Assembly (NCBI GenBank): GCA_038993745.2
Contig: CP160629.1
Span: forward strand, 1,116,001-1,180,000
DNA: 64,000 bases
Origin: Aliivibrio fischeri
GTDB lineage: Bacteria > Pseudomonadota > Gammaproteobacteria > Enterobacterales > Vibrionaceae
Direction of reading: 5' to 3'
Shown here in pieces: positions 521-42,774 of this stretch (position 1 is the first letter of the stretch; each line of letters begins with the position of its first letter). Under the pieces are notes generated by a model that made no database searches, had not been told where the DNA came from, and saw only the letters and a list, made by a program, of their open reading frames with translations. Position numbers and translations under genes: made by a program.

Positions 521-2605
521 TTACTCTATTAGTCTTTTAAAAGGAGGTAAGGCGTCCAAAAGAGCTTTACCATAACGCTTAGTTATTACACGGCGATCAA
601 GAAGCACAACTCTACCAGAATCCTCTTCTTTACGCAGTAGTCGACCTACAGATTGAATTAATTTTTTGCTCGCTTCTGGAACACTGATCTGCATAAATGG
701 ATTACCACCTCGGCTCTCAATATATTCCGAATGCGCTTCTTCAACTGGAGAGGTTGGAACACCAAATGGAATCTTAGTTATAATTAGATTTGTAAGTAGG
801 TTTCCAGGTAAATCTAATCCTTCAGAAAAGCTTCCTGTTCCAAATAAGATGCTGATTTTATTCTCATTACAAAGTTTTTTATGTTTTTTTAGAATTTCTT
901 GTCTTGATTCCTGTCCTTGAATAAGTAGGTTCCATCCATGTTTTTTAACAATCTTTTCTATACCTTCAGCAACTTTGTTCATTTGCCAGTAAGATGAGAA
1001 TAAAACTAAGCTTGAAGATTGATCGGCAAGATAAAAGGGGAGTTCTTCTATTAATAAATCTGTAAAACCAGGCGCCGAAGGTTCCATTGGTAGTTTCGGG
1101 ATGATTAATTGAGCATTCTCTTGGTAATTAAATGGTGAAGCTAAGGATAAGAAGCGTACGCCATCCTCAGGCTTTTCTGATATACCTGCTTGTTTACAAA
1201 AAAACGAATAGCTATTTAATGCTCTCATTGTTGCTGAAACGACAACCGCTCCAGCAGCTCGACTCCATAAATTTTGGTCAAGTTGCCAACCTACCTCTAG
1301 AGGGGATACGTTAATGAAGGTATCGCCGTCTCTGTCTTGACTCTTTTCTAGCCATCTAGCAAGTGGTGCTCCTTTATCACTATTGGGCTTTGCCATTAAA
1401 AACCAAACTTGAGCTAAATTTTCTAATCTTTGTAAGTAAAAGCCTATTTCAGCTAATGCAGGCTCTGCCATTCTCGGTGCTAATTCGCCATCTTTCATGC
1501 GCTCAGAGATTAAGTCACTAATTTTTGCTAGTGCTTGGTTGGCTTTAGTTGAGACTTCTTTTAATTCTTTGGATTGCTCTGCTAACCAGTTTGGTATTTC
1601 GCCATGTTCAAAACGATAAATTCCATCATCATTGAATAATGTCGGATCAAATTGCTTACTTAACTGATTAAGCGTAGGAATTAATTCCTGAATATGTTCA
1701 TGAAGAGAGTTTTGAAATCGATTAACTCTTTTTTGATCTGCAAGATTACAGAATTTACTAACCGATTTGTTTAATGACTCTAACCACGAGGCTGAACCTT
1801 TTAAACTTGCTGCAGCAGATGAGTGTTCTCGTGCCACATTTGGCAGATGGTGAGCTTCATCAAAAATATATATGGTTTGTTCTGGTTCAGACAAAACAAC
1901 ACCACCGCCTAAATCGATGTCAGCCATAACTAAACTGTGATTTGCAATAACCACATCTGCTTTATCTAAGTGTTCACGTGCTTTTTGAAATGGGCATTCA
2001 CGGTGCATGGGTAAGCCGTTATGACAGCTGTACTTGTCTGAAACAATGCTTTGCCAGATAGAAGAGGGAATTGTCGTTGGCCAGCTATCTATATCACCGT
2101 CCCATTTACCCTCAGCTAATGCTTTGTACATTCTCTTTAGTAAATCTAACTCTTTCTTTTTTGGTTTTTCAGTAAACAAAGCAACTTGCTTGTCGTCTTC
2201 ATTGTTTGACTCTGTTAATAGAGACAACTTATGACTGCAACAATACCGCTGACGACCTTTTGCAATAATAAAAGAAAAAGGCAATGGTGATATACGGCGA
2301 TAGAAAGGTAAGTCTTTATGAGCAAGCTGTTCTTGAAGTGCAACAGTTGCGGTTGAGATAACCACTTTTTTGTTATTTAACTTTGCATATGGAATTGCGC
2401 TTAGTAGATAAGCAAGAGATTTACCAATGCCTGTTCCTGCTTCTGCAACAATCATGCGATTAGAATCACTGTATTCACCTGCAAGTGATTTAGCGATTTC
2501 TGCTACTAAATAGTTCTGAGCACGGCGAGGTATAAAACCTGGAAGTTGATCTTGTAGTGTTTTGTAGCTTTGGCGAATGCTATCAGTAACCGATTTATTC
2601 AGCAT
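521..2605 (-). CDS. dinG: DinG-family ATP-dependent DNA helicase
   Basis: This is an SF2 helicase of the XPD/DinG type, about 694 residues. It shows Walker A (AEAGTGIGKS), the DEAH box (FDEAHHLPN) and a C-terminal helicase block with GTGSFSEGLDLPG and QSVGRLLR. Cysteines between Walker A and DEAH (GRQRYCCSHK, YSCHNG, HRECPFQ) fit the Fe-S cluster domain of the family. DinG unwinds DNA with 5'-3' polarity and resolves R-loops and stalled forks. I chose the ATG at 2605; a TTG 12 bases upstream is also in frame. YoaA is the paralogous alternative, but the length favours DinG. Confidence 0.85.
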   Translation of the reverse strand: MLNKSVTDSIRQSYKTLQDQLPGFIPRRAQNYLVAEIAKSLAGEYSDSNRMIVAEAGTGIGKSLAYLLSAIPYAKLNNKKVVISTATVALQEQLAHKDLPFYRRISPLPFSFIIAKGRQRYCCSHKLSLLTESNNEDDKQVALFTEKPKKKELDLLKRMYKALAEGKWDGDIDSWPTTIPSSIWQSIVSDKYSCHNGLPMHRECPFQKAREHLDKADVVIANHSLVMADIDLGGGVVLSEPEQTIYIFDEAHHLPNVAREHSSAAASLKGSASWLESLNKSVSKFCNLADQKRVNRFQNSLHEHIQELIPTLNQLSKQFDPTLFNDDGIYRFEHGEIPNWLAEQSKELKEVSTKANQALAKISDLISERMKDGELAPRMAEPALAEIGFYLQRLENLAQVWFLMAKPNSDKGAPLARWLEKSQDRDGDTFINVSPLEVGWQLDQNLWSRAAGAVVVSATMRALNSYSFFCKQAGISEKPEDGVRFLSLASPFNYQENAQLIIPKLPMEPSAPGFTDLLIEELPFYLADQSSSLVLFSSYWQMNKVAEGIEKIVKKHGWNLLIQGQESRQEILKKHKKLCNENKISILFGTGSFSEGLDLPGNLLTNLIITKIPFGVPTSPVEEAHSEYIESRGGNPFMQISVPEASKKLIQSVGRLLRKEEDSGRVVLLDRRVITKRYGKALLDALPPFKRLIE

Positions 2606-3129
2606 GAGAAGGCTCAATTAAATTTAAAAAACCATTGTACCACGCAAATTTGAGTGTGATCTTCTGCAAATAATGGAATTCAATGTTTTTAAATTGAGAT
2701 GAACATCACGAAAGTGAGAATAAGGCATCTTTGACTATGTGATGTTAAATTTTAGATTTAATTAAAGTTCTTTAAGTTAGCAATTGTTGGTTGATTATTC
2801 TGTTTTTGTTTGTTTTTAGTGTCTAAAAAAGGTTTAAATTCTTTTGTGCTTAGAAATAAATATTTATAGTTTTTGTGTTGCATGAGCTTATCTTGTGTTT
2901 TTTACAACTTGCCAACCGTTTAAGTTGTTGATTTTTAATGTGTTGTTGTTTTTTTATTTAATTTTATAATGTTTGACATAGTTATTTAGTTTTTGCAAAG
3001 TAGCAACCGAATTCAGAAATACTGATTAATCACACGATTAGATGTGTTGTCGGTACTTAATAAATTACATAAAAAACAGGGAACCGGAAATCGGATTTCC
3101 AATTTTCTAAGAAAAGGCAGTGGATTATT
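2606..3129. other. Intergenic region, dinG to first porin
   Basis: This AT-rich gap of about 520 bases separates divergent dinG and the first porin. It holds no credible open reading frame. A TGTGA half-site at 2651 (TGTGATCTTCTGCAAA) loosely resembles a CRP site but its second half is poor. The last 50 bases carry the conserved porin leader, listed separately. Long T-rich stretches at 2800-2970 suggest an upstream promoter region for a highly expressed outer-membrane protein, but I cannot place -35 and -10 boxes confidently. Confidence 0.5.
3078..3129 (+). promoter_or_regulatory. Conserved porin 5' leader with inverted repeat, copy 1
   Basis: The block GGGAACCGGAAATCGGATTTCC is followed by CTAAGAAAAGGCAGTGGA just before the porin ATG at 3130, and it recurs almost unchanged before the second porin. 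GGAAATC and GATTTCC form a perfect 7-base inverted repeat around one G. It could be an mRNA leader hairpin, an sRNA target or a protein site. AAAAGGCAGTGGA holds the probable ribosome binding site. Confidence 0.55.
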
Positions 3130-4140
3130 ATGAAAAAGACTCTTTTAGCTCTTGCAATCGCAAGTATCTCGACTTCAGCTTTTGCTGTTGATACTAGTAG
3201 CCAAAATAGTAAGAATGATGAAATGTTTGCATTTGACCCTATGCATAAAGATCAGTTTTCTGTATCTGGTTCTGTAGGTGTAGGTGGTTACTACGACACT
3301 GGTACTAAAGCATTCTATGATGATTGGGCTACAGGTTTAACTCTTGCTGTTAACTACCGTAATAACCGTGTTGTTGGTTATTTTGAAACTGACTTTATGT
3401 TGAATTATACAACTGATAGTGAAACTAAGCCTATTGCAAATGGTTCAGGCCCTGCGACTGATGTTGATAAAGCATGGTTAGGTTTTGATACTGGTTTTGG
3501 TATCGCATCTTTTGGTTGGGAAAACGATACAGCACTTGATGCTGTTGATGGCGCTGGTGATAACACATACGAATTTGGTGCTTCTGCGGGTGATGCATCT
3601 GATGGTTTTAATGTTGTTAAATTCCAAGGTTCAACAAGTGGTTTTGCTTACGGAGTATCTTACTTTGAAACTGGTGATGACCATGTTGCTGCCGATAAGG
3701 GTGTGAATGGTTACATTGGTATCGAGCAAGAAATCTTTAATGTTTATGCTGGTTATGAAACTCGTGATGAAGCTGAGTATGATGTAATGACTGTAACGGG
3801 TAACGTTAAGCTTGGTGCGGTTAAACTTGGTGCAAACTTCTGGATTGAAGATGGCGATGCTAGCGATTTAACAGGTAGAAACCTTGGTAATAAAGAGAAT
3901 ACAGGTTATTACCTATCTGCTGGTTTTGCAGCAACAGAAGACCTAACATTAGCTGCTGGTTATGCTGCTAATACGAAAGAGATTGCAACAATTGAAACTG
4001 ATTACTCTTACGTGAACGTCGCGGCAATGTATACATTAGCTAAGAATATGGATATGGGTATTGACGTACGCCAAGATCTTGATGCAGGTGCTGCTGATGA
4101 AGAAACTTACGTGTTCGCTGCAGGTTACTACTACTTCTAA
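3130..4140 (+). CDS. Outer-membrane porin-like protein, first of a tandem pair
   Basis: This 336-residue protein begins with a signal peptide (MKKTLLALAIASIS...SAFA, cleavage near residue 19) and continues with alternating glycine- and aromatic-rich strands typical of Gram-negative beta-barrel porins. It ends in AAGYYYF, the C-terminal aromatic residue that directs barrel assembly. Aspartate-rich loops (DAVDGAGDNTYEF) suggest an acidic pore or cation binding. The next gene is a close paralog with nearly identical leader and signal peptide, so the pair arose by tandem duplication. A terminator follows at 4170. It resembles Vibrio OmpU/OmpL-type porins, but I do not assign a name. Confidence 0.8.
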   Translation: MKKTLLALAIASISTSAFAVDTSSQNSKNDEMFAFDPMHKDQFSVSGSVGVGGYYDTGTKAFYDDWATGLTLAVNYRNNRVVGYFETDFMLNYTTDSETKPIANGSGPATDVDKAWLGFDTGFGIASFGWENDTALDAVDGAGDNTYEFGASAGDASDGFNVVKFQGSTSGFAYGVSYFETGDDHVAADKGVNGYIGIEQEIFNVYAGYETRDEAEYDVMTVTGNVKLGAVKLGANFWIEDGDASDLTGRNLGNKENTGYYLSAGFAATEDLTLAAGYAANTKEIATIETDYSYVNVAAMYTLAKNMDMGIDVRQDLDAGAADEETYVFAAGYYYF

Positions 4141-9747: not shown

Positions 9748-10821
9748 GTGAGCAAACAACAAAAGATTTTATTTATCGACCGTGATGGCACCTTAATTGT
9801 TGAGCCGCCGGTGGATTTCCAAGTAGACCGTTTAGATAAGCTAAAGTTTGAGCCTTTGGTTATTCCTTCTCTACTTTCTCTTCAAGATGCCGGTTACCGT
9901 TTAGTAATGGTAACCAATCAAGATGGTTTAGGTACAGATAGCTACCCTCAAGATGAGTTTGATGCGCCACATAACATGATGATGGAGTTTTTTGAATCTC
10001 AAGGAGTGAAGTTTGATGATGTTCTTATCTGTCCGCACTTTGAAGAAGATAATTGTTCATGTCGTAAACCAAAATTAGGCATGGTTAAAGAATATCTTCA
10101 AGGTGGGAAAGTCGATTTTCAACACTCAGTTGTGATTGGTGATCGCCAAACGGATCTTCAATTAGCTGAAAACATGGCGATACGTGGTATTCAATATCAT
10201 CCAGAGATAATGAACTGGCCTGCGATCTTAAAAGATCTGACCGTAAATGCGCGTACTGCAGAAGTAATACGCACAACCAAAGAAACGGACATTAAAGTGT
10301 TTGTTAATTTGGATGAGCAAGGCGGCAATGAGATCACTACTGGTCTTGGTTTCTTTGATCACATGCTTGATCAGATTGCTACACACGGTGGTTTCCAAAT
10401 GAAGATCAATGTAGAGGGCGACTTACACATTGATGATCACCACACCATTGAAGATACCGCTCTTGCATTGGGAGAAGCGTTAAAAGAGGCGTTAGGCGAC
10501 AAGTGTGGTATTGGTCGTTTTGGATTCAGCTTGCCAATGGATGAGTGTTTAGCACAATGTGCGCTTGATTTATCTGGTCGTCCATATCTGAAGTTTGATG
10601 CTGAATTTAGCCGTGAGCAGGTAGGAGATTTATCAACCGAAATGGTAGTTCACTTCTTCCGCTCTCTAACTGATACTCTTGCTTGTACGTTACACCTTTC
10701 TTCATCAGGTCATAACGATCACCACATTATTGAAAGCTTATTTAAAGCGTTTGGTCGTACGTTACGCCAAGCGATTAAAGTAGAAGGTAATGAACTGCCA
10801 AGCTCAAAAGGCGTATTGTAG
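9748..10821 (+). CDS. hisB: Bifunctional histidinol-phosphatase / imidazoleglycerol-phosphate dehydratase
   Basis: The 357-residue protein joins two enzymes. Residues 1-165 form a HAD phosphatase ([13 protein letters not shown] nucleophile block, CSCRKPK zinc-loop, [12 protein letters not shown]). Residues 170-357 form the dehydratase with metal-binding histidines ([46 protein letters not shown]). The start is GTG at 9748 with AAAGGA upstream. The fusion is typical of gamma-proteobacteria. hisH follows after 8 bases. Confidence 0.95.
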
Positions 10822-10829
10822 GAGTGACT

Positions 10830-11444
10830 ATGACAAATCAAAACGTCGTTATTATTGATACGGGGTGTTCTAACGTTTCATCAGTAAGATTTGCGATTGA
10901 GCGTTTGGGTTACGAGGTTACGATAAGCCGAGATCCTCAAGTGGTTCTGGCTGCAGATAAGCTGTTTTTACCGGGTGTTGGCACGGCAAGCGAAGCGATG
11001 AAAAACTTGGCTGAACGTGATCTCATTGAGTTAGTTAAACAAGTAGAAAAGCCATTATTGGGTATCTGTTTAGGTATGCAGCTGCTGGGTAAACTTTCCG
11101 AAGAGAAAGGTCAAAAAGCCGATCAAATTGTGGATTGTTTAGGTTTGTGTGAAGGTGAAGTTCGTAAGCTTCAAACCGGTGATTTACCACTGCCTCACAT
11201 GGGGTGGAATACCATTAAACCTGTTGAAGGTAATCCGCTGTTTAAAGACATTCCAGAGGACAGTTATTTCTACTTTGTACACAGCTTTGGGATGCAAGTA
11301 GGCGATTATACCATTGCTTCGTGTGATTACGGACAGCCGTTCACCGCAGCATTGCAGGCAGGTAATTACTACGGTGTTCAGTTTCACCCTGAGCGCTCAA
11401 GTAAATTTGGTTCAAAGCTTATTCAGAACTTTTTGGAGCTATAA
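10830..11444 (+). CDS. hisH: Imidazole glycerol phosphate synthase, glutaminase subunit
   Basis: HisH is a class I glutamine amidotransferase that feeds ammonia to HisF. The protein, 204 residues, has the nucleophile elbow [12 protein letters not shown] with catalytic Cys, and the His-Glu pair in [15 protein letters not shown] chose the ATG at 10830, with TAGGAG five bases upstream, over an in-frame GTG at 10824. Its partner HisF is encoded two genes downstream and is frameshifted in this sequence. Confidence 0.94.
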
Positions 11445-13046
<1,602 letters not shown>

Positions 13047-13050
<4 letters not shown>

Positions 13051-13666
13051 GCCAACAAGAATTAGCAACACGTATTGATTGGGAAAAAGTGGATGGTTTA
13101 GTACCTGCAATTATTCAAGATTTTGGTTCAAGCCAAGTGTTGATGATGGGATACATGAACCAAGATGCTTTAGCTAAAACATTAGAGACAGAAAAAGTCA
13201 CATTTTTCTCACGTACTAAAAATCGTTTATGGACTAAAGGCGAAGAGTCCGGCAACAGCTTGAACTTAGTTAATATTTCACTGGATTGTGATAACGACAC
13301 GTTACTTATTAAAGTAAATCCAGTTGGTCCAACGTGTCACACAGGAACAACAACGTGTTGGGATGGTGATAAAAGCGAAGAAACCCAATTGGTGTGGCTT
13401 CATCAGTTGGAACAGCTACTCGCCGAGCGTAAGAATGCTGATCCTGACTCTTCTTACACAGCAAGTCTCTATGCCGTGGCACCAAACGTATTTCGCAAAA
13501 AGTGGGCGAAGAAGGCGTTGAAGTCGCGCTTGCAGCGACGTCGGGTGACAAGGCGGAGCTAGTGTGTGAATCAGCGGATTTGATCTATCACTTATTTGTG
13601 TTATTGCAAGATCAAGGCTTATCGTTTGACGATGTGATTAATAAATTGAAAGAGCGTCATAAGTAG
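13047..13666 (+). pseudogene. hisI: hisIE, bifunctional PR-AMP cyclohydrolase / PR-ATP pyrophosphatase, frameshifted
   Basis: The N-terminal cyclohydrolase domain ([46 protein letters not shown]) is normal. At 13474 a CC where CCC is expected moves the frame. Restoring one C gives [19 protein letters not shown] and [19 protein letters not shown] to a stop at 13666, the pyrophosphatase domain, for a total of 206 residues. The start overlaps the hisF stop (ATGA). The encoded enzyme performs steps two and three of histidine synthesis. It is probably intact in the organism. Confidence 0.92.
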
Positions 13667-33759: not shown

Positions 33760-34821
33760 TTGGAATTTTTGTTTGATTACGGTCTCTTTTTAGCAAAGAT
33801 CGCAACTGTTGTTGTTTCTATTATTGCCATTTTAGTTGCAGCTAAAGCGGTTGGTGGGAAATCTGCTGGTGCAAAAGGTGAATTAGAGGTAACTAACTTA
33901 ACTGAGCAGTATAAAGATACTGTTGTGGAGTTAGAACATCATTTATTTGATGATGCAGAGTTAAAAGCGCGAGCTAAGGCCGAAAAGAAAGCAGAAAAAG
34001 AAACGGAAAAAGCAAAACAAAAAGAAATTAAGCAAGCTGCAAAATCTGGCGAGCTTGAATTAAAGCGTGATGCCCGTTTATTTGTCTTAGATTTTAATGG
34101 CAGTATCGATGCGAAAGAAGTAGCTGCGCTACGTGAGGAAGTATCAGCTATCTTAGCGGTTGCTATTGAAGGCGATGAAGTACTTTTACGTCTTGAAAGT
34201 GGTGGTGGTATGGTTCATGGTTATGGCCTTGCTTCATCTCAACTCGATCGCTTACGTGATGCGAATATTAAATTAACGATTTCTGTTGATAAAGTTGCGG
34301 CATCAGGTGGTTATATGATGGCGTGTATTGGCGAAAAAATCATTGCTGCACCATTTGCAATCGTTGGTTCGATTGGTGTTGTTGCTCAGTTGCCAAATTT
34401 CAATAAATTATTGAAGAAAAATGATATTGAATTTGAGCAATTAACCGCTGGTGAATACAAACGTACCTTAACAATGTTTGGCGAAAATAGCGATAAAGCA
34501 CGTGAAAAATTTCAACTAGAGTTGGAAGAAACTCATGTTTTATTTAAAGATTTTATTCGTGAACATCGTTCAGAGCTAGATCTGGAAAAAGTAGCAACAG
34601 GCGAGCATTGGTTCGGTAAACAAGCGTTAGAGTTAGGTCTAATTGATGAGATTCAAACGTCGGATGATTATTTAACAAAAGCGTGTAAAGATCGTGAAGT
34701 TTTAGCGATTCATTACGTTCAAAAGAAAAAGTTAAGTGATAAAATTGCGGGGATTGCAGGCCAGTCTGCTGAGAACGTATTTATGCGTTTAATTAGCAAA
34801 GGTCAGCGACCGATTGTTTAA
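33760..34821 (+). CDS. sohB: SohB inner-membrane peptidase (S49)
   Basis: The 353-residue protein starts with a membrane anchor (FLFDYGLFLAKIATVVVSIIAILVAA), has a Lys/Glu-rich segment (residues 70-105) and a serine peptidase S49 core with LRLESGGGMVHGYG, VAASGGYMMACIG (nucleophile Ser) and GSIGVVAQLPNF. SohB is the SppA-like protease facing the periplasm. The start is TTG at 33760, with AAGAGGG seven bases upstream. The foreign island begins downstream. Confidence 0.92.
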   Translation: MEFLFDYGLFLAKIATVVVSIIAILVAAKAVGGKSAGAKGELEVTNLTEQYKDTVVELEHHLFDDAELKARAKAEKKAEKETEKAKQKEIKQAAKSGELELKRDARLFVLDFNGSIDAKEVAALREEVSAILAVAIEGDEVLLRLESGGGMVHGYGLASSQLDRLRDANIKLTISVDKVAASGGYMMACIGEKIIAAPFAIVGSIGVVAQLPNFNKLLKKNDIEFEQLTAGEYKRTLTMFGENSDKAREKFQLELEETHVLFKDFIREHRSELDLEKVATGEHWFGKQALELGLIDEIQTSDDYLTKACKDREVLAIHYVQKKKLSDKIAGIAGQSAENVFMRLISKGQRPIV

Positions 34822-34885
34822 TTTTTGATGCAAGAAAGCGCATTAATTTAGACCATATCTGTTTTGTTATTTACAGGATAGATAT

Positions 34886-34917
34886 GACAAAAAAGGCTGA
34901 GATTTCAGCCTTTTTGA
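34886..34917 (+). terminator. Terminator after sohB
   Basis: AAAAGGCTGA and TCAGCCTTTTT form the stem with a GATT loop region. A similar hairpin (AATAGGCTGAAATTCAGCCTTTTTT) lies at the right border of the island at 42473. Confidence 0.88.
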
Positions 34918-35201
34918 TATGTTAATGCTTTGATTTATATTGTAATCTGAAGTTATATCGCCACAAATTGCCCACATTCTGTTAGGAATAAAGCCGCACA
35001 TATAGCATGGGCGGCTTTTTCATTGATGGTTTTTACGAAATTAATTTAGTGAAAATAGTAAATGTGAGCTAAATCAGTAAATTTAAAACAGTTAACAGTG
35101 TGTCATTCTGTCTTTAAGGTACAGTTTAATTTACATTTTACTTTCATGAATACATTAATCTGATTCATATAATAAAATGTTATGTTTTTTAGGGAAGATT
35201 T
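34918..35201. other. Left border of the island, non-coding
   Basis: No gene is visible. A second terminator-like hairpin, AAAGCCGC...GCGGCTTTTT, lies at 35000-35024. CCACAAATTGCCCACATTC at 34961 resembles sequences often seen beside phage integrase genes, but this is a weak impression. No attI site, integrase gene or full attC precedes the first cassette. GTTATGT at 35179 could be the last trace of an attC right end. Confidence 0.4.
35000..35025 (+). terminator. Terminator-like hairpin at the left island border
   Basis: AAAGCCGC and GCGGCTTT pair around ACATATAGCATGG, followed by TTTTT. No gene directly upstream would need it, so it may be a relic of deleted sequence. Confidence 0.6.
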
Positions 35202-35851
35202 ATGGATGAAATAAAAATAATCGCAGCTGTTATCGGTTCCGGGGACTAGCTGCATTGTTAACTGCTATTTATACTCGAAAGTCCCATGAAGAAAATATGG
35301 TAATTAAGTACATTACAGATGAGAGAAGGAAGTGGCGTGAAAATATTAAGTCCATTATGGCTGATTTAAGCGAAGCTGTTCAATCGTCAGCATTAAATGA
35401 TGGGAATAAAATAAAAACACGTAAGTTAGCTACTTACTTGAAACTTAGTATTAATCATGATCCTAAGCATAAAATTGATAACTGTATTTTAGGCATAATT
35501 ACGGAATTATGTGATAACCCTAATTATGAAAAGTTTAAAGAATTAGAACGTGAAGTGGCATTTTTATTAAAACATGATTGGGAAAGGGCTAAAATCGAAG
35601 CAAAACCATCAATTTCCCCGTTATTATTAATTTTATTTTCAATAGCTATTGTTTGGGTATCGTTTAAATATTGGTTTATGGATAGTCGATTATATGAGGA
35701 GTTGCAAAAGATAGAGCAATTCTCTGGGTTTTATAATGAGATTATTCTAGTGGTATCAGTTGTGATTTTTTCTCTTTTACTCTTACCATATTTATATAAT
35801 TATGCTTTAAATAAAAAGTCTTTAAGGGATGTTTTGAAATTACGCGAGTAA
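35202..35851 (+). pseudogene. Cassette 1: membrane protein of unknown function, frameshifted near the start
   Basis: From ATG 35202 the frame reads MDEIKIIAAVIGS then hits a TAG at 35247. Adding one G to the G4 run at 35241-35244 gives GSGGLAALLTAIYTRKSHEEN and a 216-residue protein. It has one N-terminal membrane span, a charged cytosolic middle (about 110 residues) and two C-terminal spans (ISPLLLILFSIAIVWVSF and IILVVSVVIFSLLLLPYLY). I recognise no family. The membrane-bound design recalls effector or defence proteins of cassettes but no function is claimed. attC 1 follows directly. Confidence 0.65.
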
Positions 35852-35858
35852 TAAAACA

Positions 35859-35974
35859 TAACAAATGCATCCGATTTACTACACTCGGCATCTCAGGTTG
35901 TCGGGTGTTTCTCGTTTTAGGGCGTCAACTTTAAGTATAATTGTATAGTAGTAAACGTGTTATGCAGGCGTTAT
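35859..35974 (+). repeat. attC site 1 (type A)
   Basis: It starts TAACAAATGCATCCGATTTACTAC and ends GTAGTAAACGTGTTATGCAGGCGTTAT; the arms are complementary apart from bulges. The centre holds CACTCGGCA...TGTCGGGTG followed by TTTCTCGTTTT, a terminator-like hairpin. Confidence 0.88.
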
Positions 35975-36000
35975 GTACCCCAAGTAACTTTAGGTTTTAT

Positions 36001-36666
36001 ATGAGATTACCATTAATAAATGTTTTTCCTGTTACAGAAAAAGAATCATCCGAAAGAGACTTATTCTTAATAAAGCACCGTGGGGAGTCATTGCCTCCGC
36101 GTAAAATTGCCAATAACGAAGACACTTTAATCGAGGATGTAGCAAATGATCATTCAAGCAGTGTTTTAGGTATCGCCTATTCTACTGCATTGGATGATTC
36201 ATCTGATTATCAAGCATCTAAAGAAATGATGCCTCAGTCTTCTGATATGCCTCATCTGGACGTCTACAGGAATAACTTTTCAAATCATATTGCGCAAAGC
36301 TGTTTTGATGAGATTGAGAAGTATGGTGGTTACCTTAGTGAAGGACAGGTTCTGTTCCATGGTGGGCAATGGCCTGTATCGAATGTAAATGGTGTTGTAG
36401 GAACTAATTTTGAAACAGACAGGGTCTTATCAACTTCTCTTTGCCCAAAAGTTGCGGCAGTCCATGCGTGTTATCATGATCCACATGTCATATGGGTAAT
36501 GAAGGTAGTTACAGACATTCAGACCAAAGCGGTAGTATTTAATGACGACTCCAGCGAGAAAATGGGGCATGAAAGAGAAGTAGCTTTTAACAAAGGACTC
36601 AAATTGAAGTGTATTGGAGAACGTAAAATTCACATATTCACAGTGCTGAGTGTTGAAATTTCGTAG
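36001..36666 (+). CDS. Cassette 2: ADP-ribosyltransferase-like protein
   Basis: I start at ATG 36001; the longer frame from 35941 would begin inside attC 1. The 221-residue protein has an order of motifs typical of the ADP-ribosyltransferase fold: VLFHGG (residues 118-122) where R-S-E enzymes have an aromatic-Arg-Gly, LSTSL (143-147) and GHEREVAFNKGLKLKCI (189-205), in which E191-x-E193 matches the catalytic ExE motif. His in place of Arg at position 120 is unusual. The first 100 residues are not recognised. It could be a toxin or defence effector. No antitoxin or immunity gene shares the cassette. Confidence 0.6.
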   Translation: MRLPLINVFPVTEKESSERDLFLIKHRGESLPPRKIANNEDTLIEDVANDHSSSVLGIAYSTALDDSSDYQASKEMMPQSSDMPHLDVYRNNFSNHIAQSCFDEIEKYGGYLSEGQVLFHGGQWPVSNVNGVVGTNFETDRVLSTSLCPKVAAVHACYHDPHVIWVMKVVTDIQTKAVVFNDDSSEKMGHEREVAFNKGLKLKCIGERKIHIFTVLSVEIS

Positions 36667-36675
36667 ATAGACACA

Positions 36676-36796
36676 TAACAAACTGTTTAAGAGGGATTCG
36701 CAACGCGTGGCATTTTCACTATGCGTTGGTTTTAGTGTTTAAGGTGGTATGCGGCGGCTTTAGTATTGCGTTGCTCACCCTTTAACAGGGCGTTAG
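36676..36796 (+). repeat. attC site 2 (type B, VCR-like)
   Basis: It starts TAACAAACTGTTTAAGAGGG and ends CACCCTTTAACAGGGCGTTAG, with CGCAACGCG...GCGTTGCTC in the inner arms. This closely follows the V. cholerae repeat (VCR) pattern. Confidence 0.9.
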
Positions 36797-36815
36797 GTTT
36801 ATATAGGAGGCTGTG

Positions 36816-37757
36816 ATGCCCATGAGAAAGATGCAAGCCTGTTCACTCAGCTTGGTTAGTCATCCAATTACTAATAATGAGTTTAGTAATAAGCAACAGA
36901 AACATAATTTAAAGTCATCTTTAGAAAATAGTAAATTATATGCTATAGCCCAAGCTAGGTATCCTAGAATTGATTTTAAGATGCAGGAAGAAGATATTGA
37001 AATTACTATATCAAATGGTGAGTTTAAATCTGTTGGTTATATTGATATTTTGTACCTTTTTGAAGTGAATTACCCAGAGTATATTGAAGCTATCTTAAGT
37101 CGTAATGTGCTGTTAAATTTCAAAACATATTCTGATCCAAATTGCTATTTTGTTATCGGCATTAAAGATAAAGATACTGGTAGCATGCTCAGAGAAGGAA
37201 TGATAGAAATTAGTGCTTGGCAGCTTTTATTTTATAAAAGCAGAGGGGAGAGTTACATCTCTGGTTTTGATAATTATAAAGATTTTCTCAAATTATTTAT
37301 TCACTATGTAGGTAAAACATCAAAATCAACCTATGAAAGACTATCAAAAGGGCATCATGCTAGGCTTAATATTTTAAGCTCAGAAGAACCAATAAATAGA
37401 CAGAACTTGTTAAGTGAAGAGTTATTAATATTGGCTTTTGAAGTTGATGCTGTAAACATAATGCAAAATCCCAAAGCACACGACTTAGGAGAAACTAAAC
37501 TGAATGACGTAATCGATTTGGTAGAAAGGTCTTTAATTTCAAGTTTTATGCCAAAATATAATGAAGTGAAATATAAGAACCATGGTGAAAAATTCAAAGA
37601 AAATGATGAGTTGGATTCATGTTGCTTAACGTTAAATGACAACATCCAATTATTTACTGATGAGGCTAAACTTTGTGGAAAGTATGATGCATCTGGTTTG
37701 AGTAACTCTGATTATATTATTCTTGATGAGAATGGAATATCCTTAAATAATATCTGA
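36816..37757 (+). CDS. Cassette 3: GIY-YIG-nuclease-like protein
   Basis: The start is ATG 36816, with a perfect AGGAGG five bases upstream; GTG 36813 is too close. In the 313-residue protein, residues 160-260 carry a GIY-YIG-like series: FIHYVGKTS (161-169), STYERLSKGHHARL with Arg175 and the His pair, then VERSLISSFMPKYNE, where E237 and N249 occupy the places of the metal-binding Glu and the terminal Asn of the family. The GIY half is degenerate. Residues 1-160 are unassigned. It may be a nuclease acting on invading DNA. Six ATAAAC repeats follow the stop. Confidence 0.55.
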   Translation: MPMRKMQACSLSLVSHPITNNEFSNKQQKHNLKSSLENSKLYAIAQARYPRIDFKMQEEDIEITISNGEFKSVGYIDILYLFEVNYPEYIEAILSRNVLLNFKTYSDPNCYFVIGIKDKDTGSMLREGMIEISAWQLLFYKSRGESYISGFDNYKDFLKLFIHYVGKTSKSTYERLSKGHHARLNILSSEEPINRQNLLSEELLILAFEVDAVNIMQNPKAHDLGETKLNDVIDLVERSLISSFMPKYNEVKYKNHGEKFKENDELDSCCLTLNDNIQLFTDEAKLCGKYDASGLSNSDYIILDENGISLNNI

Positions 37758-37793
37758 ATAAACATAAACATAAACATAAACATAAACATAAAC
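37758..37793 (+). repeat. Hexanucleotide tandem repeat ATAAAC x6
   Basis: Six exact copies of ATAAAC follow the cassette 3 stop codon and run into the first bases of attC 3 (ATAACAA). The corresponding place in attC 1 has a single partial copy. Confidence 0.95.
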
Positions 37794-37794
37794 A

Positions 37795-37914
37795 TAACAA
37801 ATGTATCAACACAATTTACTACACTCGGCATCTCAGGTTGTCGGGTGTTTCTCGTTTTAAGGCGTCAATATTAAGTATAATTACATAGTAGTAAACGTGT
37901 TATATAGGCGTTAG
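37795..37914 (+). repeat. attC site 3 (type A)
   Basis: It is nearly identical to attC 1: TAACAAATGTATCAACACAATTTACTAC, the same CACTCGGCA...TGTCGGGTG hairpin, then GTAGTAAACGTGTTATATAGGCGTTAG. Confidence 0.88.
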
Positions 37915-37945
37915 CCGTACAAGTATTCTATGCTGAGGTAAGAAA

Positions 37946-38551
37946 TTGATCGATATCCTGAGGGAAAATATCTCAAGTCTAGTAACTGCAACTGCAGTAT
38001 CATCTGGATTTGGCTTCTTCATTAAAAGAGTTTTTGATAAAAAACTTGAAGAGCATAAAGCACTATTGAAATCGCAGCATGACAAAGATTTAGAGCAACT
38101 AAAATTACAACATCAACGAGTTTTAAAGCGTATAGATGTCGTATCTCCTCTACTTCATGAAAGGAGAGCGAATTACATTATCAATTTATATATTGCACTA
38201 GTCGATTTAAGAAATTTGACCGACTATTTTTTTACTTATTCGGGTGAACCTGTTCGTTTACGAAAAGTGGCCGATGAAGTGCATAAAAATATAATTAATT
38301 TGTATGCTGATTATAAAAAAGCAAAGATATTTTTATCAAAAGGCTCGTGTGAAAAGATTGAAAATGTATTGAATGCAATAGAAGATCCTACAACGACATA
38401 TCTGAGTTTTTTAAATGTATATGAAGATTTTGAACTTGATAAAATTGATGGCGTCAGGAAACGAGAATATGACCAGATTAGGCATCTACTGCCTGACACC
38501 ATGAATAATATAGAAGAAGAGTTTAGAGAAATTCTTGGGGTGTACAGCTAA
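37946..38551 (+). CDS. Cassette 4: membrane-anchored coiled-coil protein, unknown function
   Basis: The 201-residue protein starts at TTG 37946 (MIDILRENISSLVTATAVSSGFG) after TGAGGTAAG. An N-terminal hydrophobic segment (residues 10-27) precedes a charged heptad-like stretch (KKLEEHKALLKSQHDKDLEQL, residues 32-52), probably a coiled coil, and then a mainly helical region. It resembles hypothetical proteins of vibrio cassette arrays but I recognise no domain. The TAA stop is the first codon of attC 4, leaving no spacer. Confidence 0.6.
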   Translation: MIDILRENISSLVTATAVSSGFGFFIKRVFDKKLEEHKALLKSQHDKDLEQLKLQHQRVLKRIDVVSPLLHERRANYIINLYIALVDLRNLTDYFFTYSGEPVRLRKVADEVHKNIINLYADYKKAKIFLSKGSCEKIENVLNAIEDPTTTYLSFLNVYEDFELDKIDGVRKREYDQIRHLLPDTMNNIEEEFREILGVYS

Positions 38552-38670
38552 CAGATTGCTCAAGAAGGATCCGCAACGCGTGGTATTTTTACTTTGCGTT
38601 GGTTTAAGTGATTAAGGTGGTATGCAGTAGCTCAGATATTGCGTTGCTCACCCCCTTAAAAAGGCGTTAT
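38549..38670 (+). repeat. attC site 4 (type B, VCR-like)
   Basis: It begins TAACAGATTGCTCAAGAAGG and ends CACCCCCTTAAAAAGGCGTTAT, with GCAACGCG...GCGTTGCTC arms like attC 2. The first base overlaps the cassette 4 stop codon. Confidence 0.9.
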
Positions 38671-38722
38671 ATTTTTCTAAACAAGAAAGAACTTTCCCCT
38701 TTAGTCATTAATAAGGTTTAAA

Positions 38723-40287
38723 ATGACAATAGTTTTTAATAAATTGCCGTTAGGATATGCAGCTCCTTCTAGTGGTGTAAATGTTGCTTATCTTAGACAG
38801 AATAACTGGGATGATTATAGTTATAAAACCTTATTTCATCTCACTATTTTTGGCCCCGATGGTGTTTGTTATGATATAGGTGATTTAAAAATTGGTTATA
38901 CAGAACAAAGATCTCCATCATGGACAGAGTCAGAGCTATTAAATAGTTTTAATTCGTTAGACTCAAGGTTCTTTTCATTAGGTCAAGATGCAGAATATTA
39001 TAAGAATGTTAGTGAGCTACCCACACAAATAAAAGAAAACCTAATGCATGCTTTATGTGATGTGGTTTTTAGCCAAGAGTACTTTGATAGAGCTGAGGGG
39101 CAGTCTGTTTTTAATATTTCCTTGTTGAGAAGTATTAGAGTTGGATCAATAAACGATCAATTTAAGCGAGTCATAGATGGTGGTGTATTACTATCAAATT
39201 ACAATTTCAAGTATAGGACTGAACAAAATGATACCAATGCGGGGATGTCATTAGAGTTTAATGTTACCGCTAACTCAAAGCCATCCTCAAATATCCATGT
39301 GTTAATAGGGCGTAATGGCATCGGAAAAACAACATTGTTAAATGGCATGATTTCATCATTAATTGATGGTGATTCTAGTAATCCAAATGTTGGTCGTTTT
39401 ACTAATATTTCATCACCAATTGAAGTAGATATAACAAATCACTATTTCACAAATGTAGTTTCTGTCTCATTTAGCGCTTTTGACCCTTTTACACCTCCTT
39501 TAGAAAGAAGTGATACAACTTCTGGTATTTGCTATTCCTATATAGGTCTCAAAGAAGTATATATTGAAGGTGACATAAGAAAAAGTAAGCATAAAGATCT
39601 TAATATGTTGTGCCGCGACTTCATTAAGAGCTTTGTTATATGCCTTAGTTTGCAAAAAAAGAAAGAGCGTTGGCTAAATGCAATTAATTATCTCGAATCA
39701 GATATAAATTTTGCTGAAATGGATTTGAAGAGGTTAGCAGATAATCTTAATCCTGCAGAGTTGCCGATGATAGCAGAAAGGGTATTTTCGCGTATGAGCT
39801 CTGGTCATGCGATTGTATTATTAACAGTAACAAAGCTTATTGAAAAAGTAGAAGAAAAGACGTTGGTGATAATGGATGAACCAGAGAGTCATTTGCACCC
39901 TCCTCTGTTATCGGCGTTTACTCGCTCATTATCAAATTTATTGATTAATAGAAATGGTGTCGCAATAATTGCCACACATTCCCCAGTTATTTTGCAAGAA
40001 GTACCTAAAAATTGTGTATGGAAAATCTATAGAACAAGATTATCTGCTACGTCAGAGCGCCCCCAAATGAGACATTTGGTGAAAATGTTGGTGTGTTAAC
40101 AAGGGAGGTGTTTGGGCTTGAAGTTTCTAAGTCAGGATTTCATGATTTATTATCAAGTTCGGTTAATGAGGGAAAAGACTATGATTTGATTTTATCTGAA
40201 TATAACCATCAACTTGGCTTTGAAGGAAAAGCTGTATTAAGAGCTTTAATTGCCAATAGAGACGCTCAAAGAGGGAGTCTTGAATGA
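38723..40287 (+). pseudogene. Cassette 5, gene 1: PtuA-like AAA/ABC-type ATPase, frameshifted
   Basis: The frame encodes Walker A (LIGRNGIGKTT, residues 194-204), an SSG signature (359-361), Walker B (LVIMDEPESHLHP, 381-393) and the H-loop (ATHSP, 417-421), so it is an SMC/ABC-like ATPase. At a C5 run (40060-40064) the frame ends at 40099; six Cs give SERPPNETFGENVGVLTREVF and a 521-residue protein ending at 40287. The next gene overlaps it as ATGA and is an HNH nuclease. The pair has the layout of the Septu (PtuA-PtuB) defence system. I infer this from motifs only. Confidence 0.72.
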
Positions 40288-41150
40288 GAGTAGTTGAAAA
40301 ACCAATACATGCCGTTAGAGATGTATATCAATTATGCGTCAACAGTATCTCAGATAATAATACACGAGTGCGTCTTAATGATATATCAAATATCATTGAG
40401 GATTGTGCACTAGAATATGAGCAAAAAGCCCGTGTATCAAATTTATATCTAGTGCCACCAAATTACTCGGATAACAATAGTATAATAGTTGGTGAAGTTA
40501 CAAAAAAAGAATTAAAAAGTATCTATAGTCAGCATATGGTCGCTGCAACTAAACCTGCCCGAAGAATATATGATGAGCTAATGAATTTGGCACCAAATGG
40601 AAGGTGTCCATTTTGTGGTTTAGGTCATGTTTCAACATTAGATCATTATTTGCCTAAGTCAAAATATCCGTTTTATTCAGTATTACCTATAAATTTAGTT
40701 CCATCTTGTAAGGACTGTAATACAGGAAAGGGAGCAGCATTGGCAACTTGTGCAGGCGAGCAACCATTGCACCCATATTATGATCATCAACATTATATTA
40801 CAGAACAGTGGATATTTGCCGAAGTAATAGAAACGATACCATTGTCAGTAAGATTCTTTGTGCGCCCGCCAGAAGAATGGGATCCAATTTTTAAATCAAG
40901 AGTACAGTGTCATTTTACAGATTACAATCTATCAAGTCGCTTTGCTGTTGAAGTCGCTGATGAATTAAGCTCGTTAAAATATTTATTGACTGAATATATT
41001 TCAGCAGCTGGTGTTGATGCCGTTAAAAATTATTTAATAGGGAAAGCATCAGCAGAAGCTAATAATCATATAAACTCATGGCTAACAGCACTGTATCAAG
41101 CTTTGGCAGAAAGTAATTGGTATTGCCAAGGAGGGTATGCTTTCGAATAA
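40284..41150 (+). CDS. Cassette 5, gene 2: PtuB-like HNH endonuclease
   Basis: The 288-residue protein has a clear HNH/McrA zinc-type nuclease centre: CPFCGLGHVSTLDHYLPKSK (C108, C111, D120, H121), then INLVPSCKDCNTGKG (C142, C145, N146, K149). The surrounding sequence is unassigned. It starts within the upstream ATPase stop (ATGA), so the two are translationally coupled. In Septu, the ATPase complex restrains and activates the HNH subunit against phage. Other ATPase-HNH pairs exist, so the system name is tentative. Confidence 0.75.
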   Translation: MRVVEKPIHAVRDVYQLCVNSISDNNTRVRLNDISNIIEDCALEYEQKARVSNLYLVPPNYSDNNSIIVGEVTKKELKSIYSQHMVAATKPARRIYDELMNLAPNGRCPFCGLGHVSTLDHYLPKSKYPFYSVLPINLVPSCKDCNTGKGAALATCAGEQPLHPYYDHQHYITEQWIFAEVIETIPLSVRFFVRPPEEWDPIFKSRVQCHFTDYNLSSRFAVEVADELSSLKYLLTEYISAAGVDAVKNYLIGKASAEANNHINSWLTALYQALAESNWYCQGGYAFE

Positions 41151-41153
41151 ATA

Positions 41154-41220
41154 TAACAAATGTATCAACACGATTTACTACACTCGGCAATCTCAGTTTG
41201 CCGAGTGTTCTTCATTTTAT
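41154..41220 (+). repeat. Truncated attC site (left half, type A)
   Basis: TAACAAATGTATCAACACGATTTACTAC and the central hairpin (ACACTCGGCAA...TTGCCGAGTGT) match attC 1 and 3, but the sequence stops at the methyltransferase stop codon. The right arm with GCGTTA is missing. Confidence 0.82.
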
Positions 41221-41221
41221 A

Positions 41222-42133
41222 TTAACCTTTAAATGTATTAATTATTTTTGTATACATTTCTTCTTCCATCTCAATTCCCACAAACTTTCTATTGAGTGCT
41301 AAGCACGCTTTCCCTGTTGAGCCTGAACCCATAAATGCATCAAGTACCACTGCATTTTCACGACTACTGCTTGTAATAATATGCTCGAGCAAATCTGCAG
41401 GTTTTTCACAAGGGTGTTTGCCTGGATAATACTGAACCGATGCAAATGTCCATACGTCGGTATAAGGCACTTCGGCTGTGACATGAAAAGGTCTTCTGAG
41501 ATTTTCATATTCCGCTTTTAGTTCATCGTATTCCTTGATCAGTTTTCCGTATTCACTGTGTAATGCTTGGTACTCAGTCGTAAGGTCAGAGTGTGATTTG
41601 GGGAGTTGGCCACTTTTTGATACGAACAAGGTTTGCAGTTGTTGGTATTGTTTCTCTGTGGGCAGTTTCCATTGACTCGATGAAAACCAGTGCGAGCACA
41701 TTTGTGTGCTAGTGGCCTCATTGATTTCTTTTGCTGAGATATTAAGTGCGTTCTTCGCTTTTTTGAAATAATCCATCAATGGCTTAAAGGTGGTTTTCTT
41801 TAGTTCGTTGCATTTAGTGGCGTACTGGCTACATCCTTTCGCGTATCCTTCAGAGTCATAATGCCCTGCAAAGATAATACGCTCTGTCGCAGGAAAGAAC
41901 GCCCGTAAGTGCGGCTTGTGCGCACGTTTCCACACCCCTGAAGGCTTTGCCCAAACAATGTGATTAAATACGTTAAATCGCGCACGAATAAGCAACTCAG
42001 TATCTGCCGCTAGCTTTGAGCCACAAAATAGATATAAGCTGCCAGAGGGCTTTAGTACTCGCCAAAATTCAACAAGCATTTCATCAAGCCATGCCAGGAA
42101 GGTTTCTACATCTGGCCATATTATCCCAGGCAT
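41222..42133 (-). pseudogene. Phage-type adenine DNA methyltransferase, N-terminus missing
   Basis: The 303-residue frame matches phage N6-adenine methyltransferases of the beta-class: VEFWRVLKPSGSLYLFCGSKLAADTE, NHIVWAKPSG, QYYPGKHPCEKPADLLEHII and the SAM-binding VLDAFMGSGSTGKACLALNRKFVGIE. The catalytic DPPY motif, normally about 15-40 residues upstream of WPDVETFLAWLDE, is absent. The sequence breaks at 42134, where an integrase fragment begins on the other strand. It is therefore probably inactive. It lies opposite in direction to the cassettes, so it is not a normal cassette gene. Confidence 0.78.
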
Positions 42134-42134
42134 T

Positions 42135-42404
42135 ATTTAAGCAGTGTTATAAAGAATTCTATCAAGTTTTAAAGAGTATTGATTTTGAACACCCTAAAGT
42201 GCAGGCAGTGCATGTATTGAGACATACGTTTGTAAGTCACTTTAATATGAATGCAAGGAATATTTTGACTTTAAAGAAAATTTTGGGCTACGGATAGTAT
42301 TGCAAACAATGGCATATGTTCATTTAGCGCCAGATTGTTTAGCTAAGCAGTGGAATATATCTCATTGTCTACATTATGACCGAATAGAGGCAGCAGGTAT
42401 GTAA
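42135..42404 (+). pseudogene. Tyrosine integrase remnant, C-terminal catalytic part
   Basis: The frame reads LFKQCYKEFYQVLKSI, then AVHVLRHTFVSHFNMNARNIL with the HxxR-type block of phage integrases. At 42292 a G is missing from GGG; with it, LGYGIVLQTMAYVHLAPD follows, supplying the catalytic-Tyr region, to a TAA at 42404. The N-terminal part and the second catalytic Arg region are gone. The apparent extension to 42016 is antisense to the methyltransferase. It is a relic of a phage or island integrase. Confidence 0.75.
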
Positions 42405-42470
42405 TAGTAGATTACGTTTTCGGTTGATAATTGATTGGTTAAGATGTAACAATTTGATTTGTAAGGTAAT

Positions 42471-42500
42471 AAAATAGGCTGAAATTCAGCCTTTTTTATT
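42471..42500. terminator. Terminator-like hairpin at the right island border
   Basis: AGGCTGAA and TTCAGCCT pair with a small loop and TTTTTT follows on the plus strand. It lies past the yciN stop and may originally have terminated sohB before the island was inserted. Confidence 0.75.
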
Positions 42501-42528: not shown

Positions 42529-42774
42529 TTATTTAACCGTAAACTCTTTTGATAAATGGTGCGCAAGGTATTTAAACATATTGAAAACAGCGGTTGTTTT
42601 TTCAGTAGGAAGCCCTTGGTCTGATAAGAAGTATTCTCCTTTAAACACAAGAACTTCATCTTTCTCTTCAACGCTGGTTGCACGCATACCCTCAAGGTAG
42701 TTTTCGTGATCTTGAATGATTTGATTGGCAATTAACAGTAAATCAGCCTCAGAAATGGATTTTTTATCGCTCAT
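42529..42774 (-). CDS. yciN: YciN family small protein (DUF2498)
   Basis: This 81-residue protein (MSDKKSISEADLLLIANQIIQDHENYLEGM, then FKGEYFLSDQGLPTEKT) is a YciN-like protein, acidic and without a signal peptide. Its function is not established. In E. coli it lies beside topA, as it does here. Finding yciN next to topA and sohB on the far side of the island shows that the insertion split a conserved block. Confidence 0.85.
   Translation of the reverse strand: MSDKKSISEADLLLIANQIIQDHENYLEGMRATSVEEKDEVLVFKGEYFLSDQGLPTEKTTAVFNMFKYLAHHLSKEFTVK

Follow-up and report, generated by a model that had tools for sequence, protein, structure and literature searches.

A cassette array without an integrase in the cargo slot of a decayed prophage of Aliivibrio fischeri: a probable platform for the host integron integrase

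In a 64,000-nucleotide stretch of the Aliivibrio fischeri genome (NCBI GenBank assembly GCA_038993745.2, contig CP160629.1, positions 1,116,001 to 1,180,000 of the forward strand; hereafter, the window), five gene units bounded by attC-like sites lie between sohB and topA, which raises the question of how integron cassettes came to this place in the absence of an integrase. An initial annotation, made from the letters alone, took them for a detached fragment of the superintegron in a housekeeping block. Based on our comparisons, this is not the best reading. The array stands in a prophage context, is bounded by attC sites, begins with an attI-like sequence, has no intI nearby, and has counterparts with differing cassettes at the same phage end in three other prophages. 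The prophage context is well supported: the array occupies the cargo slot of a decayed phage, probably of P2-like kin, that integrated at the terminator of sohB. On balance, we consider it probable that the locus is an integrase-less integron platform in this slot, reloaded in trans by the integron integrase (IntI) of the host.

The cassette array and its prophage

The five units, all in the same direction, are located between sohB (33760-34821) and a yciN-type gene (42529-42774) followed by topA (43209 onwards). The identities of these three genes are family matches; the 81-residue yciN-type protein matches a family titled just "hypothetical protein", and the name yciN is that of the initial annotation. 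The features of the interval are as follows (L, G and C numbers are our handles for loci, genomes and contigs; PWM, position weight matrix; ORF, open reading frame):

34889-34915, plus strand: presumed left attachment site of the prophage, an imperfect copy of the flanking repeat in the sohB terminator (homology to L014/L015)
34890-35025, plus strand: left end of the prophage with terminator, 76% identical to L024:4955-5095 (G009 prophage, sohB side)
35125-35190, plus strand: leader ahead of cassette 1, 76% identical to L058:14596-14663, with a degenerate relative in L024
35149-35185, plus strand: attI-like site, expected crossover G35179/T35180, PWM score 9.5
35180-35970, plus strand: cassette 1, ORF 35255-35851 (198 residues)
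35859-35973, plus strand: attC1, 103.4 bits, at most 93% identical to superintegron attC
35971-36792, plus strand: cassette 2, ORF 36001-36666 (221 residues; phrog_30303, unknown function, E 4e-10)
36676-36795, plus strand: attC2, second attC class, 49.3 bits
36793-37910, plus strand: cassette 3, ORF 36813-37757 (314 residues)
37795-37913, plus strand: attC3, 117.6 bits
37911-38666, plus strand: cassette 4, ORF 37946-38551 (201 residues)
38549-38669, plus strand: attC4, second attC class, 33.3 bits
38723-40287, plus strand: PtuA/PDC-M01A-like AAA ATPase by family matches, broken into overlapping frames 38723-40099 and 40093-40287
40284-41150, plus strand: PDC-M01B-like HNH nuclease, E 5e-108
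41154-41216, plus strand: half attC5 (left half and central hairpin), 35.5 bits over 41154-41244
41225-42118, minus strand: phage DNA methylase remnant, residues 51-348, 96% identical to the L051 methylase
42124-42347, plus strand: phage integrase remnant in two frames, residues 248-303 and 306-322, 64% and 71% identical to the L037 integrase (phrog_7269)
42471-42497, plus strand: right imperfect copy of the flanking repeat (terminator), where homology to L014/L015 restarts

To score attC sites, we trained a covariance model on 39 sites of the superintegron, which lies on C2, the other chromosome of the source genome, and used none from the window; the alignment retains 97.1% of its pairs, a value that none of 500 shuffles reached. 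Five window sites fit this model (117.6, 103.4, 49.3, 35.5 and 33.3 bits, the next-best window match scoring 19.6), in agreement with the initial annotation. Its five co-directional units are confirmed, with corrections: four attC sites are complete, the fifth is just half a site, the ATPase frame of unit 5 is broken, and the interval also holds prophage remains (34890-35025 and 41222-42347). The four full sites (33-118 bits) and the half site are clustered inside 5.4 kb. Among the 73 matches at E 0.001 in the genome, 69 are at C2:656-712 kb and four in the window array, with 150 of 3370 candidates scored and the 38549 site not among the 73. At the Rfam gathering threshold, no attC family was found in the window, just the ordinary histidine operon leader (RF00514, 5995-6117). 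A regular-expression scan for attC was rejected as too loose (11 window matches against a shuffle mean of 8). A run of a six-base repeat (ataaac, 37758-37793) lies directly 5' of attC3.

The sole integron integrase of the source genome above the TIGR02249 cut-off is encoded at C2:714003. None is above it on C1, the chromosome of the window, where weaker matches to other recombinases exist; the description of the array as integrase-less is supported. The window array does not have the intI gene of a complete integron. Loci L064 and L065 (in G008 and G013) encode a second integron integrase, 44-45% identical to that of the superintegron.

The absence of the array from relatives at this place is supported: the sohB-yciN interval is empty in 12 of 13 congeners, measuring just 73-132 bp, and in the 13th (G009) it is occupied by a related prophage. 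On one G009 contig, cargo genes follow sohB, then comes a DNA methylase, and the contig breaks off in phage DNA. Another starts phage-like and has an integrase adjoining the yciN-type gene; we infer that these are the two ends of one prophage. In the window, homology to the empty-site relatives L014 and L015 runs to approximately 34918 and restarts at approximately 42468, in the second copy of the sohB terminator, imperfect copies of which stand on both sides of the insert. The phage DNA between methylase and integrase is missing. What the window retains of the presumed P2-like prophage is the C-terminus of the integrase, the methylase, and the left end with the flanking terminator copies, with no head or tail genes among these; head and tail genes are found in the relatives L058 and L105, and tail genes in L051. 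Integrase-binding repeats in the left end (34890-35025) are suspected by eye only.

A scan of IMG/VR with the methylase gave nine loci. In two of them, L051 and L058, attC arrays are convergent to the methylase, as in the window. The methylases of L051 and the window are 95-96% identical. In L058, the head and tail genes are P2-like, and its end bears a tRNA-Trp. A third prophage, L105 (IMGVR_UViG_2744054703_000003), was found by an attC pattern and has the same head and tail families; its attC sites follow the tape-measure gene, in the orientation opposite to the arrays of the window, L051 and L058. Three P2-like IMG/VR prophages carry differing attC arrays at the same phage end. As for the remaining loci, the records of L052-L054 and L056 end at the methylase and are uninformative on arrays, and L055, L057 and L059 have no attC (best match 14.6 bits, L055). 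Cargo without an attC array occupies that place in L024 (G009), L038 (G012) and L055; the methylase terminator of L024 and L038 is an attC-like hairpin with weak model matches (20.4 bits, E 0.12, and 23.5 bits, E 0.02). Twenty related-methylase loci from genome contigs yielded no attC array and two weak matches at the methylase terminator, and no viral contig was matched by two additional attC patterns. When viral contigs were scanned for IntI, the 74 relatives detected (22-60% identity) were partial or distant, and the contigs of L051, L058 and L105 carried none of them. A lone attC was observed in a prophage of a different type (L063, IMGVR_UViG_2627853855_000001); judging from the translations, it adjoins a gene for an OLD-like ATPase and an IS66-like element, with lysis and terminase genes close by.

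The window array ends in a terminator-like hairpin of attC5 (41180-41208) between the last cassette and the convergent methylase, a layout shared by L051. The same 30-bp hairpin is frequent in the genus (31 rows in 11 of 14 genomes), mostly at apparent attC sites, a status judged by place and sequence and not case by case; because of this recurrence, attC5 is read as a probably decayed attC, and a chimera between attC and a phage terminator was dropped. The methylase terminator of these phages is similar to it; that of L058 differs from a common attC hairpin of the genus at one of 30 bases. The terminal attC is reduced in the arrays of the window, L051, L058 and L105.

The attI-like head of the array

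The initial annotation reported no visible attI. Nevertheless, we identified an attI-like site at 35149-35185. In the genus, the attI core is GTATAATTAAAT in 12 of 16 intI loci, followed by G/TT (the slash marks the crossover) in 11 and masked in one. A PWM trained on 11 superintegron attI sites only was run over 3,647,232 positions in 193 partly overlapping records. Unmasked attI sites scored at least 39.5, followed by plasmid pAWOD72 (28.1), L058 (25.1), plasmid pAWOD920 (23.1), L055 (22.2), the masked attI (20.2), G001:C57 (18.7) and the window site (9.5), the best remaining position reaching 4.4. The window score is thus above the background maximum, yet the leader alone is not above shuffles in pairwise alignment. 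Since its pairwise likeness to attI is weak, the case for the window site depends on the PWM score and on the homologous leader of L058.

The plasmid and genomic sites were found with the L058 leader as a query against 329 genomes. It matched four places, three of them at the attI-like end (G013:C3, G013:C5 and G001:C57) and one, in G272, elsewhere in the query. The contigs G013:C3 (L106) and G013:C5 (L107) are the Aliivibrio wodanis plasmids pAWOD920 and pAWOD72. All three leader-found places are followed by attC sites, a single one in G001, and no intI was found on these contigs at E 1e-60. In L108 (G001:C57), two closely similar integrase-like frames (2340-3788 and 10498-10944) flank the attI-like site and its one attC; L108 is possibly an integrative element. 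A 23-bp phage-type pattern occurs in one of 247 family genomes, the window, and in two viral contigs (L058 and L055); this pattern was drawn from known sites, and the new finds by sequence only are the three from the L058 leader. A 45-bp site query gave no further plasmid match better than E 8, no match in E. coli, and a best phage match of E 3 among the best 20 of 27 records.

In the five headed arrays (window, L058, pAWOD72, pAWOD920 and G001:C57), the site is on the array strand, 529-800 bp before the first attC. The crossover is G/TT in the window, L058, L106 and L107, and T/TT in L108; it is missing in the two leaders without cassettes, L055 (G/TC) and L024 (G/CT). In the 30 nucleotides before the crossover, L058 and pAWOD72 (L107) are identical at 29, with no detectable similarity further upstream, and the window shares 24 with L058.

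Cassette cargo

The cassettes, which on our reading originate from Vibrionaceae chromosomal integrons, are varied. Among the 29 cassette proteins of seven arrays (window, L051, L058 and L105-L108), a single cross match was found, at 29% identity (blastp, E 1e-3). Comparison with 40 kb of superintegron DNA from the source genome (L009 and L013) gave no match to the cassette proteins of the window. Cassette 3 is 94% identical over 979 bp (36789-37767) to G005 C2:897881-898859, on a contig rich in attC matches in another species, and proteins 93% identical to its own occur in Aliivibrio sifiae and Photobacterium piscicola. In the array of pAWOD920, the last protein (L106:7665-8189) is 98% identical to a superintegron protein of the source genome (L013:3587-4111).

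The presence of probable defence genes had been proposed, and it is supported for unit 5 only. Its AAA ATPase (first piece, PDC-M01A, E 4e-171, and PtuA1, E 1e-166; second piece, PDC-M01A, E 2e-21) lies beside the HNH nuclease (PDC-M01B, E 5e-108), the gene pair that defines Septu/PDC-M01. Because the ATPase frame is broken, the activity of this predicted defence pair is doubtful; its split over two overlapping frames may reflect either decay or a sequencing error. For units 1-4, PADLOC gave no match and Pfam none of weight. The proteins of ORF1 and ORF4 gave nothing of weight in Pfam, PADLOC and PHROG comparisons; in cassette 1, an alternative ATG frame from 35202 ends early, judged by eye. 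The ORF2 protein has relatives at 90%, 78% and 35% identity; structure prediction gave no usable fold (mean pLDDT, predicted local distance difference test, 30.7), and its profile had no meaningful match among solved structures. It may resemble an ADP-ribosyltransferase. In L105, the last array unit, followed by a reduced attC, is a Thoeris pair (11080-13236; ThsB, E 1e-57, and ThsA, E 2e-201).

Origin and significance of the array

According to the reading that we favour, the left end of the phage would hold an attI-like docking site, followed by the cassettes and by a terminal attC decayed to a hairpin at the convergent methylase end. The host IntI (on C2) would most likely load or exchange cassettes in trans, at the attI-like and attC sites, during phage residence. 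The leader may drive transcription of the first cassette, and as a lysogen the phage would bring its cargo, at times anti-phage genes, into new hosts, from which it may itself benefit.

Several observations weigh against this reading, which is drawn from sequence comparison. Of the 30 nucleotides of the window site, just 20-24 agree with those of the remaining mobile sites and 18-19 with those of chromosomal attI, and 13-99 of 200 shuffles reach the pairwise score of the window leader against five superintegron attI regions. The L105 head is not recognised by the PWM. Comparison of the L058 and L051 arrays with 14 genus genomes gave no match at E 1e-65. Eight control stretches were compared: L185-L189 are arrays outside the superintegron, L190 has no attC, and L191 and L192 resemble superintegron pieces. 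None of the four chromosomal arrays with the head in view (L185, L187, L188 and L189) has an attI-like site. Among the arrays whose head is visible and that were detected independently of the site, the site is present in three of four phage or plasmid arrays (window, L058 and pAWOD920, not L105) and in none of the four chromosomal ones (Fisher p 0.14); L051, L060 and L186, with the head out of view, were excluded, as was L063, a lone attC with no site in the 419 bp visible. The statement that every mobile array has such a head was dropped, as L105 is unrecognised and the pAWOD72 and G001 arrays were found through the head itself. Finally, the leader is present without an attC array in L055 and, degenerate, in L024, and the L024 homology passes through the crossover point; for this reason, the leader may be a native phage promoter.

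These leaders without cassettes also favour an explanation in which the site is a mere promoter or operator (palindrome CGAATCNGATTCG over a TATAAT box) that expresses phage or plasmid cargo, its attI likeness being convergent and IntI having joined cassettes at any GTT; the confinement of the likeness of L058 and L055 to superintegron attI to approximately 30 bp is in line with this. Nevertheless, the sites rank at the top among 3.6 million positions by a PWM trained on attI alone, and the G/TT crossover of the headed arrays (T/TT in L108) is absent in the cassette-less L055 and L024. We regard a mere promoter as rather unlikely.

One-off capture, in which a phage ancestor took a piece of a chromosomal integron (attI edge and cassettes) by recombination and has since carried it as a passive, decaying passenger on which IntI is inactive, also appears unlikely to us. 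The reduced terminal attC of all four phage arrays and the attC-like hairpin that L024 and L038 retain as methylase terminator (weak matches) are consistent with such decay, and phage capture of integron fragments has been published for Vibrio anguillarum (PMC9892861). However, the cassette proteins differ from array to array in spite of the 95-96% identity between the methylases of the window and L051, and the attI-like module also occurs on plasmids with unrelated flanks.

An off-site insertion, by which IntI or homologous recombination put cassettes into a resident prophage remnant of this strain only, in the manner of attG and with no dedicated docking site, would fit the off-superintegron arrays of at least three other congeners (G004, G009 and G011; L185-L189), the four of them with the head in view having no attI-like site, but it is weakened by the L051, L058 and L105 arrays at the same phage end and by the attI-like sequence at the array head, and we consider it very improbable. 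When L185-L189 were compared with four phage loci, they showed no P2-like gene; the contigs of L185, L186 and L189 also bear sohB, and the arrays of L185 and L186 terminate in an attC reduced to its centre.

The platform that we favour resembles several known systems. Clusters of attC sites lacking integron integrases (CALINs) have been described as hitchers, open to mobilisation in trans by complete integrons (PMC11389934). With at least two attC sites that fit the structural model and no intI, the window array qualifies as a CALIN; the definition, however, ignores attI, whereas here an attI-like site heads the array, and the cargo slot that holds it recurs among phages. Temperate Vibrio phages with integron pieces and CALINs in phages have been reported by Qi et al. 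(2023; PMC9892861), together with virulent-phage attC sites active with IntI1; the V. anguillarum cases are on chromosome II, include intI, and are ascribed to prophage excision at or beside the chromosomal integron. In contrast to those cases, the slot reported here belongs to P2-like phages integrated elsewhere (sohB terminator, tRNA-Trp), the cassettes differ per phage, and no intI was seen. Rousset et al. (2022; PMC9122126) described anti-phage hotspots of P2-like phages that are cos-proximal or, in K139-like phages, between cI and the integrase. The variable cargo with defence systems, Vibrionaceae included, is a likeness to those hotspots; unlike them, our slot is at the late-gene end, from the methylase (or tape measure) to the attachment site, and its units are integron cassettes. 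Compared with the Vibrio superintegron, attC classes of the same genus are shared, and the attI-like site resembles the attI core of the genus, but the array has no integrase, five units instead of tens, and a location in phage or plasmid DNA. In a literature search by titles and abstract openings, the top results described no attI-headed arrays in P2-like phages or pAWOD plasmids. Such arrays could be overlooked because IntegronFinder seeks attI for class 1 only (PMC9024848).

In a wider and more tentative proposal, Aliivibrio phages and plasmids would carry "satellite integrons", dedicated integrase-less platforms that parasitise the integrase of the host chromosome; with it they would take up cassettes, defence systems among them, reshuffle them and pass them from host to host. 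Such a platform would comprise a 30-bp attI module distinct from the chromosomal attI and with the same crossover. Chromosomal integrons are large cassette stores whose exit from the chromosome is poorly explained. If the proposal is true, there would be a direct, testable exit route, in which cassettes are loaded by the enzyme of the host onto a vehicle that then spreads them, and some integrase-less arrays would be working platforms rather than wreckage.

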